Shown: piece by piece, positions 5,715 to 34,108 of the stretch
How positions within the stretch are numbered: position 1 is the first letter of the stretch
Layout of the letters: each line of letters starts with the position of its first letter
NCBI GenBank assembly: GCA_017883205.1
Contig: JADGNZ010000009.1
Coordinates: 95,028 to 159,027, forward strand
DNA length: 64,000 nt
Reading direction: 5' to 3'
From: Thermoanaerobaculia bacterium
Lineage (GTDB): Bacteria > Acidobacteriota > Thermoanaerobaculia > Gp7-AA8
Program-made: the position numbers and the translations under genes
Notes under the pieces: model-generated
Database searches by the model: none
What the model was told of the DNA's origin: nothing
Seen by the model: the letters and a program-made list of their open reading frames with translations, nothing else

Positions 5715-6386
5715 TCACTTCTGCTTCGGGGTGGGTGGTGGTGCTGGTTTCGTCTTGCACGGATGACCGGAGCGCCCGCGGGCGGGCTGCATCGTCTTTA
5801 CGTGGGCGACGAGTGAGGCGGCTCGGGCGTTACGGGTGTATCCCTTGGCGAGGTTGTACACATGCAACGCTTGCTGCACGACGTCCCAGCGCTCCCGGAA
5901 TATGTTGTACCGAACGTCCCGTGCAAGCGCTTCGGCGGCTGCGGCGAGAGGCTCGAACCGCAGGTTGCGGGTGATGCCCAGGCGTGTTTTCACCGGATCG
6001 AGACCGGTCGTTGCCTGCATCGACGCGTCGTTTTCCGCCGCGACGGCACTGGCTTCGGGAAACACGTCAGGGACGGCGCGGGCCGCACGCATCATCTTGA
6101 TGCCTTCAGCCGGCGCCGGCACGAAGTCGGGCAGGATCTGATAGAAACCGCAAAGCTGCGCCACCGACTGCTGGACAAGTCCGTCGAGCGCCGCAATGCC
6201 GGACGCTCCGGACGGGATCAAGAAGGCGCGCGCGCAGCGCGCGGTGGATCGCGCTGCGTTGCGCGACGCCGTCGATCGCGAATGTTCTCGCAGCCGGCTG
6301 ACGGCGACCCGACCGGGGCCCACTGCGACACATACCGTATCGCAGCGTTGCGCCCTGGTTGCGCACGTGCGCATCCACCGTGTCAC
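5715..6386 (-). CDS. Hypothetical protein; true start uncertain (ORF-track start lies inside the tandem repeats)
   Basis: Central and C-terminal part looks coding; resembles the protein at 7063-7620 in its helical core and Pro/Lys-rich tail. Confidence 0.5.
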   Translation of the reverse strand: MTRWMRTCATRAQRCDTVCVAVGPGRVAVSRLREHSRSTASRNAARSTARCARAFLIPSGASGIAALDGLVQQSVAQLCGFYQILPDFVPAPAEGIKMMRAARAVPDVFPEASAVAAENDASMQATTGLDPVKTRLGITRNLRFEPLAAAAEALARDVRYNIFRERWDVVQQALHVYNLAKGYTRNARAASLVAHVKTMQPARGRSGHPCKTKPAPPPTPKQK

Positions 6387-6735
6387 AGCGTTACACCCTC
6401 GGTGCGCACGTGCGCACCTACCGTGTCACAGCGTCGCACCCTCGTTGCACGCGTGCGCACCCACCGTGTCACAGCGTTACACCCTCGGTGCACACGTGCG
6501 CATCCACCGTGTCGCAGCGTTGCACCCTCGGTGCACACGTGCGCACCCACCGTGTCACAGCGTTGCACACTCGGTGCACACGTGCGCACCCACCAGGTCA
6601 CAGCGTTACACCCTCGGTGCACACGTGCGCGCCTACCGTGTCACAGCGTTGCACCTTCGGTGTACACGTGCGCACCGGCCATGCCGCATCGTCGCACGCG
6701 TGGTGCGCAGGTTTGCACGCATCGTGTTGCAGCGT
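6320..6735. repeat. 43-bp tandem repeat array, about 10 units, with GTGCRCACGTGCGCAC palindromes
   Basis: Recurring ccgtgtcacagcgtt at 6335, 6378, 6421, 6464, 6507, 6550, 6593, 6636, degenerate at 6679 and 6722: constant 43-bp spacing. Confidence 0.95.
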
Positions 6736-6764
6736 TCCATGTCGTCGTTTCCCCGCGTTGCCCC

Positions 6765-7062: not shown

Positions 7063-7620
7063 ATGAGTGATACCGTCAATAACACCCCTGTTTCATCGAA
7101 CCCTGATCCGGCCAAGCTGACCGCCGAAGAGGTCATCGCCCAACTGCGCACCATGAGGTCGCAGATCGATGACGTCGCGCCGTTGTCGAAGGAGCGGCGC
7201 AAGCTGGTCAAAATGCGTCTGCGGACGCAGACGGCGCCGGTCGTCGAAGCGTCGATCAGCGTGATCGGCTCGTCGGACAAGGTGGCGCAGGCTGTAGGCC
7301 AGCCGCTCGCCGGCGTTCTCCAGCTCCAGAGCGACTCTGTACACTGGAACCTCGTCGCCGATGAGCTCCGCTCGTTCCTCAAAGGCATCGAAGGGGCGAA
7401 TCTGCTCCGTCGCGAGGAGCTCGCGTTCATCGCATCGCAGGCGTACTCGTTCGGATCGCAGCTCGCGCGGAGCCCGGTCAACGCCGACCTGGTGCCCCAG
7501 GTCGAGGAGATCAAGCGTCTGAAGACTCTCGCGCGCCGCAAGAAGGCGCCGCAGAATCCGCCGACGCCGTCTCCGACGCCAGCGCCTGCCGACGACACGT
7601 CTACGGCACCGAAATCGTAA
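7063..7620 (+). CDS. Hypothetical protein, helical with C-terminal Pro-rich tail
   Basis: Complete ORF, good codon bias; MSDTVNNTPVSSNPDPAKLTAEEVIAQLRTMRSQI...; followed by a strong hairpin. Confidence 0.75.
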   Translation: MSDTVNNTPVSSNPDPAKLTAEEVIAQLRTMRSQIDDVAPLSKERRKLVKMRLRTQTAPVVEASISVIGSSDKVAQAVGQPLAGVLQLQSDSVHWNLVADELRSFLKGIEGANLLRREELAFIASQAYSFGSQLARSPVNADLVPQVEEIKRLKTLARRKKAPQNPPTPSPTPAPADDTSTAPKS

Positions 7621-9868: not shown

Positions 9869-11869
9869 CTACTTGTCGTTGTGCAGCTCGACGAACTCGT
9901 AGATGAAATTGCCGCTGCCGGCGGCGTCGGAGAATTCGTTGATGACGACGCCTTTGGCGCAGCCGGCGCCGGCGCCGCTGCCGGGGTTGGCGAGTGTCGT
10001 TACGCCGACTGTCCAGTTCGAAGTGATGCCTGCGCCGGTGCAGGGATCGATGCGTTGGAGGTCCTGATTCGCGCCTGAGGCCTCGGAGATCGTCGGGCCG
10101 TCGATGATGGTGCCGCTGGCGTTCTTGAGCGTGTAGTTTTCGCTGCCGTTGATCTGTGGGAAGGCGCCGGCGGTGGTGAGGTAGACGACGTTCGATCCGA
10201 GGGTGACGCCCCAGAAGGTCTGGAAGGCGGCCTTCGTGGCGTCGCGGCCGATGACGACGTAGCCATTCGCGGGAATCACGGTGCCGGCCGGGATCGTGTA
10301 GACGACGGTGGCGTTGGCCTGCGTGACAGTCCAGCCGGAGATGTCGGTGCCGGTGGGATTGTTGACGGTGACGCCGATGGCCGTGGACGTTCCGACGTTG
10401 AGCGCGGCGTCGTAGGCTTTCGCGGTCAGCGAGTGCGAACCGTTGGCGACCGAGGTGGAGTCCCAGCTATAAGAATACGGAGAGGTGGTGTCGGTCGACT
10501 TGAGCGCGCCGTCGACGTAGAACTCGACCTTCGTCACGCCGACGTTGTCGGACGCGGTGGCGTTGATGGCGACGGTGCCGACGACGGTGGCGCCGTTGAG
10601 CGGAGCGGTGATGGAGACGGTAGGCGCAGTGGTGTCGCCATTGTTGTTGACGGTGACGGAGACTGCGGTCGATGTTCCGACGTTGAGCGCGGCGTCGTAG
10701 GCCTTCGCGGTCAGCGAATGCGATGCGTTGCTGGCGGAGGTCGTATCCCAGCTCCATGAGTAGGGCGAGGTTGTATCGGTCGATTTGAGCGCGCCGTCGA
10801 GATAGAACTCGACCTTTGTTACGCCGACGTTGTCGCTCGCCGAGGCGTTGACCGAGACCGTTCCGTTGACCGTAGCGCCGTTCAACGGAGCGGTGATCGA
10901 AACGGTTGGAGGAGTCGTGTCGCCGCCACCTGAACCGTTGGCAATCCAGGCGATGCCGTTGGCGACGAGCAGGCCGTTGTCGTAGGTCGTGTCGTTGTAG
11001 CCGAGGTAGGTCGTGTGGCCGCAGGAGTTGGTGGCATCCTCGGTGACGGAGGAGTCGGCGATTGCGGCGATACGGCCGGTGCCGTAAGTGGATGTCGCGT
11101 AAGTGACACCTGTCGTTGAGTCGTGCGTCGACGTCGTCTTCCAGATGTGACCCTGCGCGGCGCCGGACAGCGTCATCGAGGAGGAACCGAACAGTCCGAG
11201 GCCCTTCGTCGGCGAAGGAACACCGAACGTGCCGGTGAAGATGATCGGCGAGGTGGTGACGGTCGTGTAGTTGTGATCGGGATGATCGTCGAACCAGCCG
11301 AAGGTGGTGTCGGACGAGTTGTCGTTGTAGGTGATGCCGAAGATGCTCGGGCTGCCCATGAGCGCGTTGAAGACGCCGGCCGCATCGATACCATCACTAT
11401 TCCGGTCGGCGCCGGCGTGGTCGGAGATCATGAAAAGTCCGCCGCCGTTGAAGACGAAGTTGCGGATGGCGGTGATCTCGGTGGACGTCAGGGCGATGTT
11501 CGGCTCGGGCATGACGAAGACGTTGTAGTGGCTGAGGTCCTGTACGTTGGTTCCGTCGCCGTAGCTGATGCGGGCGCCGACGGGAAGGCTCTCAACGTGA
11601 AAGCCTTTCTTGACGAGATCGACGCCCATCGCCGAGAGTGCGCCGTTCCAGTACGTTTCAGCGGTGCCTGAGGTGATGCCCGACTGGTCAGGCGTGGGCA
11701 AACGTTGCGCGGTGCCGCAGGTGTCTTCGTCGAGGGTCCAGTCGGCGTTGCCGGCGGTCTGCGCGTGGGCGGCGTCGAAGAGGATGGTCTTCTGTTGTGC
11801 GACGGCGTGGGTTGCTGCAAAAAGGACAAATGTAACCAGGATGGACATCATGAGAGAGCGTTGTTTCAT
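9869..11869 (-). CDS. Secreted multidomain protein: N-terminal domain, two Ig-like domains, lamin-tail-like C-terminal module
   Basis: Start MKQRSLMMSILVTFVLFAATHAVAQ preceded by GGAGGAA; tandem TPPTVSITAPLNGATV...SDNVGVTKVEFYLDGALKSTDTTSPYSWSWD; C-terminus INEFSDAAGSGNFIYEFVELHNDK. Upstream start at 12202 rejected. Confidence 0.85.
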   Translation of the reverse strand: MKQRSLMMSILVTFVLFAATHAVAQQKTILFDAAHAQTAGNADWTLDEDTCGTAQRLPTPDQSGITSGTAETYWNGALSAMGVDLVKKGFHVESLPVGARISYGDGTNVQDLSHYNVFVMPEPNIALTSTEITAIRNFVFNGGGLFMISDHAGADRNSDGIDAAGVFNALMGSPSIFGITYNDNSSDTTFGWFDDHPDHNYTTVTTSPIIFTGTFGVPSPTKGLGLFGSSSMTLSGAAQGHIWKTTSTHDSTTGVTYATSTYGTGRIAAIADSSVTEDATNSCGHTTYLGYNDTTYDNGLLVANGIAWIANGSGGGDTTPPTVSITAPLNGATVNGTVSVNASASDNVGVTKVEFYLDGALKSTDTTSPYSWSWDTTSASNASHSLTAKAYDAALNVGTSTAVSVTVNNNGDTTAPTVSITAPLNGATVVGTVAINATASDNVGVTKVEFYVDGALKSTDTTSPYSYSWDSTSVANGSHSLTAKAYDAALNVGTSTAIGVTVNNPTGTDISGWTVTQANATVVYTIPAGTVIPANGYVVIGRDATKAAFQTFWGVTLGSNVVYLTTAGAFPQINGSENYTLKNASGTIIDGPTISEASGANQDLQRIDPCTGAGITSNWTVGVTTLANPGSGAGAGCAKGVVINEFSDAAGSGNFIYEFVELHNDK

Positions 11870-22022: not shown

Positions 22023-22116
22023 CGATCGTTCTTGCGTTTCGGGGAACGCCCCCTCATCCGCCTTCGGCACCTTCTCCCCCACAAAAAACGTGGGGGAGAA
22101 GGCGCTCGTGGGAGAG

Positions 22117-22182
22117 GTTGTCGCGAAGGTTGTCGCGAAGGTTGTCGCGAAGGTTGTCGTGAAGGTTGTCGTGAAGGTTGTT
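22117..22182. repeat. 12-bp tandem repeat (GTTGTCGCGAAG), about 5-6 units
   Basis: Direct inspection. Confidence 0.9.
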
Positions 22183-22748: not shown

Positions 22749-23015
22749 TTGATGCGAACCACATTGACGCTGGATGATCAGCTTGCGAAGGCGCTCAAAG
22801 AGATCGCGCACCGCACCGGCAAGCCTTTCAAGGATGTCGTCAACGAGACCCTTCGAGGAGGGCTTCAGAAAAAAGGCGTGCAGCCGAAACCGTACCGGCT
22901 CAAGACGGTCTCGCTCGGTGGCGTTCTCGGGGGATTGAATCTCGACAAGGCGTTGAGCATCGCGGACGCTCTCGAGGACGAGGAGATCGCCCGAAAGCTC
23001 GAGATGCGTAAATGA
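22749..23015 (+). CDS. VapB-like antitoxin
   Basis: Ribbon-helix-helix-like MRTTLTLDDQLAKALKEIAHRTGKPFKDVVNETLRGGL; overlaps the PIN gene. Confidence 0.8.
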   Translation: MMRTTLTLDDQLAKALKEIAHRTGKPFKDVVNETLRGGLQKKGVQPKPYRLKTVSLGGVLGGLNLDKALSIADALEDEEIARKLEMRK

Positions 23016-23452
23016 TCCTGGCGGACGCGAACCTGCTCATCTACGCCATCGATCGAGACGCTCCCCATCACCGGCGGGCACACGCATGGCTCGTCTCGAT
23101 CATGTCCGACGTCACCCCGGTCGCCCTCGCATGGATCGTCATTCTTGCTTTTCTGCGAATCACGACTCGCACCGGGATCATGCGCAACCCGCTGACGCCG
23201 GAGCAAGCCATCCGTTATGTCGACTCCTGGCTGGCTCAGCCACACGTCGTCATCGCCTGGCCCGGCGAAGACCACTGGCCGATCATGCGGAGTCTCCTCC
23301 TGGCTAGCGGCACGGCGGGCAACCTGACTTCCGATGCTCACCTTGCCGCCATCGCCATCGAAAAGGGAGCAACGATCCACACGGCCGACAACGATTTCCG
23401 GCGCTTTGCAGGGATCAGGGTGATGAATCCCATCGACAAACAAAGCCATTGA
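23012..23452 (+). CDS. VapC-like PIN-domain toxin
   Basis: MILADANLLIYAIDRDAPHH...NLTSDAHLAAIAIEKGATIHTADNDF. Confidence 0.88.
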   Translation: MILADANLLIYAIDRDAPHHRRAHAWLVSIMSDVTPVALAWIVILAFLRITTRTGIMRNPLTPEQAIRYVDSWLAQPHVVIAWPGEDHWPIMRSLLLASGTAGNLTSDAHLAAIAIEKGATIHTADNDFRRFAGIRVMNPIDKQSH

Positions 23453-23485: not shown

Positions 23486-25153
23486 ATGAGACGTCTGCCC
23501 CTGATCCTGCTCCTCCTCCTCATCGTTCCGCGCGCAGACGCTCAGTGGCCGCAGATCGGCGCGAACCCAAGCCATAGCGGACACGTGCCTGTGGCGGCGC
23601 AGCCCCTGCTTCAGCTCATGTCCGACATCGTCTACGACCCGTTCGTAGAACAGGAGCAGGCGGCCTCTTTCGGCGACCTCCTCGTTCACTACCAGGTGCC
23701 GCTCATCGACGGCGACGGCGTCTACATGGAATTCAAGTCGGGCGCATTCGTGACGCCGGAACATTGGGAGACGCAGGACTGGAGCATCCACGGCCTGCGT
23801 TGGCAGGACGGCACGCTGGCCGACCGCTGGACGGCGCCGAGCGACTGGAAGCCGGTGCCGGCGAACGGCGCCGCTTTTTTCGAGCCGGTATTTCACGCCG
23901 TGCTCGCGAATGGTTTTCTCTACATGCCCGCAGCCGGCGGCACACTGATGCAAATCGACCGCATCGATGGCCACCTCGTGAAGCGCATCAATCCGTTCCC
24001 GTCGTTCGATCCGAACATCTACGTCTCCGGCGTTCCGGCAGCCGACGCGGCGGGAAACATCTACTACGGAGCGTTCGGACTCGATGCCGCCGATCCCTGG
24101 GGAAAGGACATCACCGGCGCGTGGCTGGTGAAAGTGCAGCCCGACGGCAGCACGCGCGCGATCCCGTTCGCTACTCTCGTTCCGAATGCGCCGAGGGCGA
24201 CGGATCAATGCACGTATTTTTTCAGCGGCAGCGCGCCGCACCCATTGCCGCCCTCGCCGTCCGCGGTGGCACCGACGATCCCTTGCGGTTCCGTGAGGCC
24301 GGGCATCAACGCTGCGCCCGCGATCGCCGCCGACGGCACGATCTACGTCGCCGGTCTGGCAAACCTCAATCCTCTCTGGTCGTACCTGGTGGCCGTCAAC
24401 CCCGACCTCACGCCGAAGTGGAGCGCATCGCTGCGCAATCGTTTTCACGATGGATGCGGTGTGCTCATCCCATATGGAACTTCCTCAGGCTCCTGCCGGG
24501 CCGGCGCAGCACTGGGTGTCGATCCGAACGACAATCAGCCGGGCTCGGGAATCGTGAACGACGACTCCACATCATCACCTGTCGTCCTCCCCGACGGCTC
24601 GGTCCTGTACGGCACCTACACCATCTACAACGGCGAGCGCGGACACCTGACACACTTCTCCTCGTCCGGAGCGTTCGTGGCCTCCTACGATTTTGGCTGG
24701 GACATCACGCCCGCGGTTTGGGAGCACGACGGCACGTGGTCCATCGTGATCAAGGAGAATTTCTACGAGGCTCCTCAGAAATACTTCATCACCCAGCTCG
24801 ACGCGAATCTGCAGAGGGAGTGGCAATTCAGGAGCACGAACACGCAGGCATGCGGCCGCGCGCCGGACGGCCATGTGTTCTGCGTTGACGAACAACCAAA
24901 CGGCTTCGAGTGGTGCGTGAACGCGCCGGCGATCGACAGCCGGGGAGTTGTGTACGTGAACAGCGAGGACGGCAATCTGTACGCGATCGGCCAGACCGGC
25001 ATCGTCCAGGAGAAGATCTTTCTCCAACTCGCCCTCGGCGCCGGCTACACGCCCGTGTCGATCGGTCCGGACGGAAAGATCTACGCGCAGAACGCCGGAC
25101 ACCTGTTCGCTGTCGGCGGCTCACGGCCGCGGGTGCGAGCAGTGCGGCACTGA
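23486..25153 (+). CDS. Exported PQQ-like beta-propeller protein
   Basis: Signal peptide; INSEDGNLYAIGQTG and DGTIYVAGLANL repeats. Confidence 0.75.
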   Translation: MRRLPLILLLLLIVPRADAQWPQIGANPSHSGHVPVAAQPLLQLMSDIVYDPFVEQEQAASFGDLLVHYQVPLIDGDGVYMEFKSGAFVTPEHWETQDWSIHGLRWQDGTLADRWTAPSDWKPVPANGAAFFEPVFHAVLANGFLYMPAAGGTLMQIDRIDGHLVKRINPFPSFDPNIYVSGVPAADAAGNIYYGAFGLDAADPWGKDITGAWLVKVQPDGSTRAIPFATLVPNAPRATDQCTYFFSGSAPHPLPPSPSAVAPTIPCGSVRPGINAAPAIAADGTIYVAGLANLNPLWSYLVAVNPDLTPKWSASLRNRFHDGCGVLIPYGTSSGSCRAGAALGVDPNDNQPGSGIVNDDSTSSPVVLPDGSVLYGTYTIYNGERGHLTHFSSSGAFVASYDFGWDITPAVWEHDGTWSIVIKENFYEAPQKYFITQLDANLQREWQFRSTNTQACGRAPDGHVFCVDEQPNGFEWCVNAPAIDSRGVVYVNSEDGNLYAIGQTGIVQEKIFLQLALGAGYTPVSIGPDGKIYAQNAGHLFAVGGSRPRVRAVRH

Positions 25154-25179
25154 GTACGAAGCGTCGTACCCGCGGCTGG

Positions 25180-26105
25180 AGGTCGCGATCTCCTTCCCCG
25201 AGGTTGCAATCTCTCCGCACGAAGTCACGATCTGCTTCGACGAAGTCGTGATCTCCTTTGGCGAGATCCCGATCTCCTTCCACGTGATCGCGATCTCGCT
25301 CCCCGAGGTTACGATCTCCGCCGGCAAGATCGCGAGACCACTTCACGAGATCCCGATCTCTTTCCTCGAAGTACCGATCCCCTCCGTTCTTATCTCGATC
25401 TCCAGTTTTGAGATCGACATCCCCCTCTTTCTTAAACCGATCCCTCGGAGTCTCGTTTCGACCCCTCGGCTTCTCAAATGGACCCCTCCTGATCTCAAAG
25501 CGATCCCTTGGCTTCTCAAAACGACCTCGCGAAATCTCAAATCGATCTCGTTTCGAGATATCGCGACCCCTCCGAATCTCGAAACGATCCCTCGGAATCT
25601 CAAATCGATCTCCTTCCCCGAGGTCGCGATCTCCTCCGAAGAGATCGCGATCTCCATTTTTGAGATCGATACCCCTCTCAATCTCAAAACGACCCCTCCG
25701 AATCTCAAAACGATCCCCCGGAATCTTAAAACGACCCCTCCCAGTCTTAAAACGACCCCCCGGAATCTCGTTTCGACCCCTCCAATTCTTAAATCGACCC
25801 CTCCCGATCTCGAAAATTTGGGTTTTTTTCTTAAAACGACCCCTCTCCATCTCAAAGCGATCTATCGGTTTCTCAAAACGATCTCGCGAAGGGAGATATC
25901 GATCTCTTTTCTCGAGATCGATACCCCTCTCGAACTTAAAACGACCCCTCCGAATCTCAAAACGACCCCCCGGAATCTCGTTTCGACCCCTCCATTTCTT
26001 AAATCGACCCCTCCATTTCTTAAATCGACCCCTCCGATTCTTAGAACGACCCCCCTCAATCTCGAAGCGACCCCCTCCGAATCGCAGATCGACGTGATTT
26101 CTGGA
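25180..26105. repeat. Large degenerate 21-bp tandem repeat array (about 40+ units) between convergent genes
   Basis: Unit like CGACCCCTCCGAATCTCAAAA; e.g. ATCTCAAAA at 25681 and 25702, ATCTTAAAA at 25723. Open in several frames on both strands. Confidence 0.95.
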
Positions 26106-26228
26106 GATCGCGACTCCTCCGCCGATGCCGCGGACCTGACCACTGGGGGGCCTGACCAAGAGGTTCCGTATATTTCAGAACATCTTTTCGATCGGATTTG
26201 GAAACTCACGGCCCGTGAGACCGGATCG

Positions 26229-29213
26229 TCAGCTCGTTCCCGGCCGCAGTGCGCTCGCCGGCACCGGCTCGCCGAAAAGGAATCCCTGGACGTCTTCGCA
26301 TCCCTGTTCGCGCAGGAAATTGAGCTGCCGCTCGGTCTCCACGCCCTCGGCCGTTACGCGAAGCCGGAGACCACGAGCCATGCCGATGACGGCGGAAACG
26401 ATAGCGCGGTCGGCGGCGCTCGCTTCGATCTCCTGCACGAACTCCTGATCGATCTTCACGCTGTCGATCGGGAAGCTTCGCAGGTAATTGAGCGAGGAGT
26501 GGCCGGTGCCGAAATCGTCGATGGCAATCTGCAAACCCATCTCCCGCAAACGGTGAAGCGTGGCGATGGTGCGGTTCGTGTTCTGCATCGCCAGGCTTTC
26601 CGTGATCTCCAGCTCGAGACTGGCCGGCGCCAGTCCGGAGAGCTCGAGCGCCGCGGCGATCAGTTGGGGGAGATCGGAGTGTTGGAACTGCCGAGGGGAG
26701 AGATTAATGGCCATGCGAAAGGAGGAACCGGCCTGCTGCCACATTTTTGCCTGACGGCAGGCCTCGTTCAGCACCCACTCCCCGATCGGCACGATCAGCC
26801 TTGTCTCCTCGGCGACGGGAATGAACTCCTTCGGTCCTACCAATCCAAAACCCGGCCGGTTCCAGCGGAGAAGCGCTTCGACTCCGGTGATCCGGCCGGT
26901 GCCAATGTTGACCTGGGGCTGGTAGTACAACTCCAGCTCGTCGCGTCCGAGGGCGTGGCGCAGATCGCTCTCCAGAGAGAGCCGTTCCAGGGCCCGGCTG
27001 TTCATGGCCGGAGTGAACATCTGATAGGAGTTCCGGCCCGCGTCCTTGGCCCGATACATGGCGTGGTCGGCATTCGCAAGAAGCGCCTCGGCCGTGTCGC
27101 CGTCGCTCGGAAAGAGCGCGATGCCGATGCTGGTCGTGAGAAACAGCTCGGTTCCCTCGATGGCCAGCGGCTGCGCGACGGTCTCGAGCACCTTCTGCGC
27201 GATCTTCGCCGCATCGTTGCTCGTCTTGAGGTCAGCGAGGAGCACGGTGAACTCATCGCCTCCCATCCGCGCCACCGAATCCTCTTCACGGAGGGCGGCC
27301 TGAAGCCGCATCGCCACGGCCTTCAGAAACTCATCGCCGACAGAATGTCCGAGCGTGTCGTTGACCACCTTGAAGCGATCGAGATCGAGGAACATCACCG
27401 CGAGCGGGTGTTTCAGGCGGCGGGCGTGGGCCAGCGCGACGGTGAGCCGATCGCGAAAGAGCCGCCGGTTCGGCAGACCGGTCAGAGCATCGTGATAGGC
27501 CTGATGCTCGATGTGCTCTTCGACCGTTTTTCGTTCGGTGATATCGCGGGAGACGCCGACGACTTCGCGGGTCTGCCCCGAAATGACGTCGAGGATGATG
27601 CGGCTCGTCGTCTCGAACCAGACCAGCGAGCCGTCTTTTTTCTCGACACGATAGGCAAACGTCGTCGGACCCGACTCGTTGATCAGTGCCGAGAGGTGGC
27701 GGACTTCTTCGCGGTCCGGCGGGAAAATGAAGTCGTAAAACGAGTGTCCAACGAGCTCGGAGGGCTCGTACCCGAGGAGGCGGCGCGACGCGTCCGAGGC
27801 ATAGAGAATGATTCCGCGGCCGGAAGTCCGCGAGATCATGTCGGTCGAATTCTCGGCCATCAGCCGGTAGCGCGCCTCACTATTCCGCAGCGCTTCCGCG
27901 GCCATGCGCCGTTCGGTGATGTCGTTGTGCACGCCGATCGATCCGATTACGCTGCCCGCAGCGTCGACTACCGGCGAGCCGCCGATCTCCAGCCAGATCA
28001 CCGTCCCATCCTTTCGTCGAATGCGTAGCTCATACTGATCGGCGACGTGGCGTATTCGCAGCCGCGTCTTCTCGTGCAACAGGGCCACGTCTTCCGGATA
28101 GGCGAGCAACAGATCAGCCTTCGTGCCGACGAGCTCTTCGCGCGAGTAGCCGACCATCTCGCAAAAACGATCGTTGACGAACTGCAGGATGCCGTCGTTG
28201 TCCGTCCTGGTGAGTCCTTCGCGCATCCGCTCGACGAGCAGGCGGTAGCGCTCCTCGCTTTCCCGCAGCGCGTTCTCAGCCAGCTTGCGGTCGGTGATGT
28301 CGATGACGGTCCCTTCCAGAATCTCGGGATCGCCATCGAGCAGGTGAACGCTTTCGATGAGCCAGCACGGGCGGCCGTCTTTCCGCCGCAGGGAGATCTC
28401 GTTGCTGGTCATCATCCGTTCCCGGCGAAGGACGGCGATGTAGTCGTCGCGGTGCGACGGATCCTGATAGAGGTCCCTCGCGGAGCGCTCCATCAACTCC
28501 TCACGAGAAGAGAAGCCGAGGATCCCGGCCAGGGCGTCGTTGCAATCGAGAATGCGGCCGTCGATCGTGTTGCGATAGACGCCGGCCAGGTTGCGCTCGA
28601 AGAGGAGGCGGTGTTGCTGCTCGCTGGCGCGCAGGGCCGCCTCCGTCCGGTGACGCTGGATGGCATTGACGAAAATCTCGCCGATGATTCGCAGCAGCGA
28701 GACCGCGTCCTCGCTCCAACGCCGCCGCTCCGCGGAGGCGACTCCAAGCGCGCCGAGAAACGCGTGGTTGTACATCATCGGCACGAAGGCGACGGAGCGG
28801 TTGCCGGCGCGCTCATACGCTTCCCGCTCGGCCGCCGCTTCTCCCGGCAGATCGTCGATCGAGATCGTCAGTTGCTGGAGATCGTTCAATCGTCCGGATG
28901 ACCAGGGGAATGCCGCGAAAGGAACTTTCTCGCCGAGGCCACGGGGCACGCCTGGATCGGCATTCCACTCATGCGTGAGAACCGCCCACGCCCCATCGTC
29001 GCTGAACATGTAGATGTACGCGCGGTCGGCACCCACGAAACGGCCGACGCTCTCCAGCGCGGCGGTAATCTCCCGCTCGACGTCGGCGGCGGCGACGTTG
29101 ATGAAGTTCGTGGAGATGCCGGAGATCAGCCTCTCGAACGCGAGGCGGTGATCGAGCATCTCATGCGCAGACTGCGCACCAACCTGTTTAGTGACCGGAA
29201 TCACGTCCGACAA
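26229..29213 (-). CDS. GAF/multi-PAS sensor with GGDEF and EAL domains
   Basis: ARMGGDEFTVLLADL; GVEALLRW; DDFGTGHSSLNYLRSFPIDSVKID; several PAS repeats. Confidence 0.95.
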   Translation of the reverse strand: MSDVIPVTKQVGAQSAHEMLDHRLAFERLISGISTNFINVAAADVEREITAALESVGRFVGADRAYIYMFSDDGAWAVLTHEWNADPGVPRGLGEKVPFAAFPWSSGRLNDLQQLTISIDDLPGEAAAEREAYERAGNRSVAFVPMMYNHAFLGALGVASAERRRWSEDAVSLLRIIGEIFVNAIQRHRTEAALRASEQQHRLLFERNLAGVYRNTIDGRILDCNDALAGILGFSSREELMERSARDLYQDPSHRDDYIAVLRRERMMTSNEISLRRKDGRPCWLIESVHLLDGDPEILEGTVIDITDRKLAENALRESEERYRLLVERMREGLTRTDNDGILQFVNDRFCEMVGYSREELVGTKADLLLAYPEDVALLHEKTRLRIRHVADQYELRIRRKDGTVIWLEIGGSPVVDAAGSVIGSIGVHNDITERRMAAEALRNSEARYRLMAENSTDMISRTSGRGIILYASDASRRLLGYEPSELVGHSFYDFIFPPDREEVRHLSALINESGPTTFAYRVEKKDGSLVWFETTSRIILDVISGQTREVVGVSRDITERKTVEEHIEHQAYHDALTGLPNRRLFRDRLTVALAHARRLKHPLAVMFLDLDRFKVVNDTLGHSVGDEFLKAVAMRLQAALREEDSVARMGGDEFTVLLADLKTSNDAAKIAQKVLETVAQPLAIEGTELFLTTSIGIALFPSDGDTAEALLANADHAMYRAKDAGRNSYQMFTPAMNSRALERLSLESDLRHALGRDELELYYQPQVNIGTGRITGVEALLRWNRPGFGLVGPKEFIPVAEETRLIVPIGEWVLNEACRQAKMWQQAGSSFRMAINLSPRQFQHSDLPQLIAAALELSGLAPASLELEITESLAMQNTNRTIATLHRLREMGLQIAIDDFGTGHSSLNYLRSFPIDSVKIDQEFVQEIEASAADRAIVSAVIGMARGLRLRVTAEGVETERQLNFLREQGCEDVQGFLFGEPVPASALRPGTS

Positions 29214-29338: not shown

Positions 29339-29818
29339 ATGAGAAACCTCCTCATTGCCGCCGCGCTCGTTCTGGCAGCCTGTTCATCCTCGGCACCGGC
29401 TGCCCCGAAACAGAAGGCCAACATCCCCGATCCCGACTTCGAGATCCGTCAGCTCTCGGGAGCGGCGGAGCAGAACTACGCCGATGGACCGATCGAAGTG
29501 AAGTATCGCCTCGATATCGGCAACCGAGCCGACGTGCCGATCACGCTCGCCAGAGTCGAGATCGTCACGGTGAATCCCCCAGGCGGGGCGTATAACCTCG
29601 ATCCTTCGCACCGGTCGTATTACTTTCGCAAAGCGATCGAACCGCACCAGACCGCCACGATTGAGTTCTGGGCCAAGGCGATCAGCTACGGCCCCGATAA
29701 TCGTCGTCAGAACGAGCCGGTCACCGTACGAGGCACCCTCTATTTCGAGTCGCCGAATGGCTACCTGCGCCACGTGTTCATAAAAGAGCTCGGTCAGTAC
29801 GCGGGTCAGAACGATTAA
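29339..29818 (+). CDS. Hypothetical lipoprotein
   Basis: Lipobox LVLAACSSS. Confidence 0.65.
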   Translation: MRNLLIAAALVLAACSSSAPAAPKQKANIPDPDFEIRQLSGAAEQNYADGPIEVKYRLDIGNRADVPITLARVEIVTVNPPGGAYNLDPSHRSYYFRKAIEPHQTATIEFWAKAISYGPDNRRQNEPVTVRGTLYFESPNGYLRHVFIKELGQYAGQND

Positions 29819-29821
29819 TCA

Positions 29822-30250
29822 GGACAGAGAGCAGAGACAAGAGATCAGAGACAAGAGATCAGGGGCTATCCGGGAGGTGTCATCCACGGTTTCAAGGTGT
29901 CATCCTGAGCCTGCCGGAGGCGCCGCGTTGCTCGTTGCTTTCACCCAGACCTTCCTCGGCGCCGCAGGACGGCGAAGGATCTCAAGTTGCCGCGCACATG
30001 GCATGCGCCTCGTAATTTGAGATCCTTCGACGTCCTACGCCGCCACATCTTGCAGCGCGACGGCTCGAGTACGGATGGCGGCTCCGGCGTCTCAGGATGA
30101 CACCGCTCCTTTTGCGCGCCGAGTGCGCAGCCGCTAACTGGACGGGTCGTTCTCTGGCGCGGACGAGGTTTGCGCCGGGGGTCTCTGGTCTCCGTCTCTG
30201 GTCTCCGTCTCTGGTCTCCTGTCTCTGGTCTCTCGTCTCTGATCTCTACG
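29822..30250. repeat. Intergenic inverted element with short degenerate arms (AGAGACAAGAGATCAG / GTCTCTGGTCTCC)
   Basis: Complementary low-complexity arms at both ends; similar element at 33970-34080. Confidence 0.65.
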
Positions 30251-33968: not shown

Positions 33969-34108
33969 GAGCGGAAGAGATCAGAGACAGGAGATCAGAG
34001 ACAAGAGACCAGGGGCTACCTGCCGCCTCGTCCCGAATCTCTGATCTCTGATCTCCTGATCTCTGATCTCTGATCTCATCGGCACGCGAGAAGCATTACT
34101 CTTCCCGC

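Follow-up and report, generated by a model that had tools for sequence, protein, structure and literature searches.

The 21-bp tandem array found in the stretch of DNA analyzed here (64,000 nucleotides, hereafter the window) belongs, as a copy that lacks the gene, to a class of tandem arrays whose units span two or four helical turns. Where such arrays are linked to a gene, they are located upstream of members of one large paralogous family, often just before a promoter-like motif of the ECF type. The arrays are constrained at the DNA level (as dyads), their codes are clade-specific, and they have been copied, in blocks and without the gene, to other intergenic sites. The best overall explanation, to which we attach about even confidence, is that the units are tandem sites (operators) for a putative dimeric protein and that the arrays, in addition, behave as mobile blocks that are copied.

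The initial annotation described a 21-bp repeat array between two convergent genes, and this was confirmed by the register of the units (which runs without an indel), by TRF (which gives the same period) and by the self-match of the array, which reaches 0.57, 0.54 and 0.53 at lags of 21, 42 and 63, respectively, and approx. 0.25 at other lags. The array is present at the originally assigned positions (25180–26105), but proved to be slightly longer (Table 1). Two unit styles can be distinguished, each predominating in one part of the array. The GGDEF/EAL assignment of the minus-strand neighbor is correct; for the upstream gene, labeled as a PQQ-propeller, Pfam gave no match at E ≤ 0.001. The spacer that separates the array from the EAL gene end contains neither a family gene nor the promoter-like motif GTAAC-N-CGTC; the sequence GGAAACTC (at approx. 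26205) may, as judged by eye, be a decayed promoter remnant. A hairpin at the 5′ end of all arrays, a candidate prompted by the window array (GTACGAAGCGTCGTAC) and its copy on contig C5, was rejected, because 8-bp stems were not enriched (11%, versus 8% in control stretches).

Table 1. Location of the features discussed in the text (window positions, unless a contig or locus is given)
Feature	Position	Strand	Description and basis
Orphan array	25171–26116	.	~45 units of exactly 21 nt; register print, TRF
Array, 5′ part	25171–25400	.	Mainly dyad units GAGATCGCGATCTC (GARRTCnCGATCTC); register print
Array, 3′ part	25440–26090	.	Chiefly CGACCCCTCCGAATCTCAAAA-type units, dyad-type units mixed in
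Spacer, array to EAL gene end	26117–26228	+	
Open reading frame	25248–28028	+	926 aa; overlaps the array
Flanking gene	23486–25153	+	555 aa; no Pfam match
Flanking gene, convergent	26229–29213	-	PAS/GAF/GGDEF/EAL; Pfam domains
PIN-domain gene	23012–23452		PF01850; upstream of the 555-aa flanking gene
Family gene	7063–7620	+	185 aa, helical, basic RRKK and Pro-rich tail; E 1e-58
Family gene, divergent partner	5715–6386 (also read 5718–6425)	-	Start codon uncertain; E 3e-47
Second window array	6334–6736	.	43-nt (four-turn) period, dyad GGTGCGCACGTGCGCACC; between the two divergent family genes
Array copy	G000 C2:247397–248290		89% identity
Array copy	G000 C5:44092–45007		86% identity
Array copy	G000 C82:944–1466		73% identity; covers the first 525 nt of the window array
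5′ leader of the C82 gene	L011:442–868		About four copies of a ~109-bp unit
Simple repeats of 7-nt units	29818–29862, 30180–30247, 33975–34077		GGTCTCT, ATCTCTG, AAGAGATCAGAGAC; unrelated to the 21-nt arrays
12-nt repeat	22115–22181		AGGTTGTCGCGA; 5.6 copies, 98% matches
Tandem duplication	10359–10924		285-bp unit, two copies, 81% matches
Separate interspersed element, ~60–70 bp	L179:15947–16017		Also at >30 other places in G000
Similar-looking element	near 22.0–22.7 kb		SPPRFLWGRRCRRRMRG; by eye

The search for the unit elsewhere in the source genome (G000), as originally proposed, revealed three further copies of the array, so that the window array is one of at least four. The copies on contigs C2 and C82 run through a promoter-like stretch into an ORF of the large family, and C5 has the array and the promoter/leader, with the gene absent. 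When the window array was compared with the C2 and C5 copies, the sole gap was one entire 21-nt unit, and substitution rates differed among the 21 unit columns (chi-square p 0.015 and 0.0015), which indicates that the constraint follows the unit and not a reading frame. This bears on the question of coding. The 926-aa ORF and the open reverse strand are both present in the ORF list, and such long open frames on both strands are in line with an array encoding a protein of 7-aa repeats. Against this, substitutions fall evenly over the three codon positions, and pN/pS is 0.65–1.15 in all six frames. Of the 81 arrays linked to a gene, 37 lack an open frame in the sense direction, and the periods of 17 are other than multiples of 3. 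A repeat protein, a possibility that the initial annotation had retained, is thus extremely improbable, and the 926-aa ORF is spurious, as had been proposed.

In the congener G001 the same convergent gene pair is present, but its members are only approx. 30–60 nt apart and the array is absent; the orthologue of the 555-aa gene stops approx. 30 nt short of the convergent EAL gene. The array was therefore either gained in the source lineage or lost in G001. The placement of the window copy between convergent genes, together with its exact two-turn period, had suggested a transcription barrier or a site of curved DNA. Such a role is very unlikely. The orthologous site of G001 works without an array, phased A-tracts occur in only 14 of the 81 arrays (curvature is thus not a conserved property), and the convergent setting does not hold in general, since most arrays lie upstream of putative family-gene promoters and the orphans sampled occur in all orientations.

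In order to determine how arrays and genes are associated, the DNA upstream and downstream of 123 distinct family ORFs was scored for any period of 10 to 60 nt. Tandem arrays were detected upstream of 84 of the 103 family genes with at least 400 nt of upstream sequence (the remaining 19 had no detectable upstream array), and every period was 21, 22, 41, 42, 43 or 44 nt, i.e. two or four helical turns. No two- or four-turn array was found in the 115 downstream regions, five of which carry a repeat of unrelated period (Fisher 3e-42 for upstream versus downstream, in a set of related paralogues whose counts are not independent events). The arrays run to roughly 5–45 units, as counted in draft assemblies of the metagenome type, where an array may have been shortened by collapse. 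Several G000 contigs (among C2, C82, C9, C100, C22 and C30) end within family genes, C2 and C82 at the same codons, which indicates that the assembly breaks at these repeats.

As a control, a random 400 kb of G000 without any family gene was found to contain 13 such arrays, and 280 kb of G009, where the family is also present, five. In contrast, the relative G012, which lacks the family, yielded none in 373 kb (Poisson 5e-6, given the G000 rate). Confined to two- and four-turn periods, to the upstream side of one family and, as far as this sample goes, to genomes possessing that family, the arrays do not behave as simple satellites or VNTRs.

The motif GTAAC-N13-18-CGTC (in its fuller form GTAAC(CTT)-N-CGTC(TnA), also written GTAACCTT-N-CGTC) is present upstream of 40 of the 103 genes in the sense orientation, compared with 8 of 103 in antisense and 6 of 103 downstream; the median distance from the array end to the motif is 65 nt. 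ECF-sigma promoters have a −35 AAC and a CGTC-type −10 element, spaced by approx. 16–17 nt, and we take the motif to resemble them. Stem-loops with GCGCGT-like loops were noted by eye between the motif and the start codon.

The units share one plan, namely a half-site, approx. four central bases, an inverted half-site and a spacer, while their sequence varies by locus (e.g. TGAGTACGGACTCA in L066, GAACTATTTAGTTC in L028, TAGATCGCGATCTA in L102 and GGTGCGCACGTGCGCACC at 6.3 kb of the window). Dyad symmetry exceeded that of column-permuted controls (z>2) in 43 of the 81 arrays, each with its own sequence; in the remainder it was weak or missing. Short dyads with 4-nt centers could also point to a transcribed hairpin RNA of the CRISPR or riboswitch kind. 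We consider this highly unlikely: dyad mismatches of the G.T type (67) are not commoner than those of the A.C type (100), so the dyads are not kept as stems of a sense-strand RNA; the promoter motif is situated downstream of the arrays; CRISPR-type unique spacers are absent from the arrays; and Rfam gave nothing in the array at the gathering threshold (matches below it were taken as chance).

The unit sequence (code) follows the adjacent protein. A common code was found in 14 of 16 protein pairs with at least 80% identity, in half of the pairs at 70–80%, and in just 9 of approx. 2957 pairs below 50%. Codes are kept across species at 55–75% protein identity in L041/L066, L028/L053, L033/L060 and L102/L064. 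Two close pairs with differing codes, L150/L156 (90%) and L085/L087 (83%), are the strongest evidence against a strict model in which each protein reads its code.

The family profile matched 64 times in G000, 55 in G002 (Thermoanaerobaculia bacterium isolate Chersky.31_28, a congener), 9 in G001, 24 in G009 and 2 in G016, all belonging to one GTDB family; no match was obtained in the other 13 genomes of this GTDB family or in 295 further genomes sampled across the phylum. A scan of a genome-contig collection returned nothing with a G000 protein as the query, and with a G002 alignment it returned Chersky.31_28 alone. A viral origin is unsupported, as one G000 protein found no relative in IMG/VR. 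The proteins (approx. 180–280 aa) have no match in Pfam, PHROGs, NCBIfam, PADLOC or PDB. They are predicted to be all-helical, in an AF2 model of modest quality (pLDDT 69) that gave no usable PDB fold match. An alignment of 106 members shows conservation of hydrophobic positions, of Pro and Tyr, of a basic RRK stretch and of a Pro-rich tail; neither His nor any residue of a catalytic type is conserved. In one subgroup (L068, L069, L131, L145, L147, L149, L020, L092, L091, L071 and L073) the next gene encodes an M4 protealysin-like metalloprotease (PF02868, PF01447, PF16485), and in at least three of these loci there is also a small gene of approx. 110 aa, conserved over genera. With the protease and the small protein following one subfamily, some modules are operons.

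Of the roles proposed originally for the window array, a DNA-level site of the protein-binding type is the best supported. On one face of the helix, the units would offer sites to a dimeric protein; coating the array in a cooperative manner, this protein would control the adjacent putative ECF-type promoter. The simplest candidate for this protein is the encoded small helical protein with its basic C-terminus, which may act on its own code; against such self-binding, no DNA-binding domain is recognizable in it in the five databases named above. In that case the orphan arrays would represent either additional loci for binding or mobile copies, and the window array itself would be expected to be bound, with no target gene left. 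A bolder form of this reading is that the family comprises dozens of protein-DNA address systems that operate in parallel and are insulated from one another, in which each protein binds only the two-turn array code of its own clade, at its own gene and at the orphans, the self-recognizing pair having been diversified repeatedly in one lineage. We regard this proposal as tentative and rather less probable than not.

The array census (a 464-kb sample plus the family loci) yielded approx. 30 orphan arrays per Mb, in tandem, divergent and convergent gaps. In a set of 14 orphans to which the window array belongs, nine strongly match one gene-linked array (119–488 bits, compared with 91 and 37 bits for the two best permuted controls), and the similarity ends near the array boundaries. 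One code in G000 is represented by six arrays, 81–87% identical, and a single gene; the six start at a near-fixed 5′ boundary (GGAATAACTGA), preceded by DNA that is unrelated, and their 3′ ends vary.

These orphans could be remnants of full modules from which the gene was lost, with no copying of gene-less arrays. In favor of this are the C5 copy, which has the promoter/leader, and the site orthologous to the L179 orphan, which in G002 is occupied by a full module of a different code. However, similarity to the master arrays stops near the array ends, and at least five orphans of one code per single gene copy would require many parallel losses, so that gene loss is improbable as the general explanation.

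A serious rival is a selfish origin, in which the arrays are non-autonomous repeats mobilized in trans, the family gene is a diverged mobilizer comparable to that of RAYT-REPIN systems, and there is no regulatory role in the host. The block copying of entire arrays into unrelated flanks behind a near-fixed 5′ boundary, the empty orthologous site in G001 and the private repeat flavor of each gene clade, as in REPIN-RAYT (PMC3116915), all point in this direction. On the other hand, the protein lacks conserved catalytic-type residues, no target-site duplication was identified at the array copies, and promoter-proximal placement and cross-species conservation of the codes are left unexplained. We therefore see a selfish origin as a possible, though not the favored, reading; it can coexist with regulation.

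Tandem operators that are also copied as blocks, our preferred explanation, invite comparison with several known systems. Operator or centromere arrays of the par/ParB type are dyad arrays near an operon encoding the binding protein; here there is no ParA, ParB or RHH match, and the paralogues are very many. Cyanobacterial STRR heptamers are dispersed intergenic tandem repeats. The TAACTGA repeats of Beggiatoaceae (PMC4679880) likewise occur in tandem at many intergenic sites dispersed over one genome. Both differ in being one short heptamer used genome-wide, with no private repeat for each paralogous gene.

Plasmid iterons are tandem sites of approx. 17–22 bp, located next to a gene that encodes a DNA-binding protein, and their helical phasing matters (PMC4980987). 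They resemble our arrays in unit length, gene adjacency and phasing, binding by the neighboring product being here only putative. However, there are usually 2–7 iterons at one origin, in contrast to dozens of chromosomal loci with many more units, and the Rep initiator is a winged-helix protein, whereas the family protein has no Pfam or PDB counterpart.

The nearest analogue in logic is RAYT-REPIN, with its private palindromic repeats beside the gene and dispersed intergenic copies for each gene lineage (PMC3116915, PMC8266576), both of which are also seen here. Its defining features are absent. RAYT (TnpA-REP) is a tyrosine HUH transposase, while the family protein, with its all-helical model, has no HUH or catalytic-Tyr signature; REPs are single-strand hairpins of 20–50 nt with a GTAG-type tag, often in inverted pairs, and not 21-nt direct repeats with variable dyads and no common tag in the units inspected; and long two-turn tandem arrays, only upstream, with tens of paralogues per genome, set the present system apart.

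No description of a gene-plus-array system was found in open-licence PMC papers. Whichever reading holds, one class of spurious repeat ORFs and of contig breaks in these Thermoanaerobaculia genomes is accounted for by the system. Should each protein recognize its own array, nature would have provided a library of orthogonal DNA-binding pairs, on which ideas about the diversification of protein-site specificity could be tested; if the arrays are selfish, they would represent a new way of repeat spread in bacteria. Since the HUH enzyme and tagged hairpins of RAYT-REPIN and the winged-helix Rep protein of iterons are missing, this gene-plus-repeat system, judged against the open-licence literature and from draft assemblies, looks like a previously unreported one. 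Bacteria seldom have tens of paralogues that are each accompanied by a tandem DNA code of their own and by stray copies of it.
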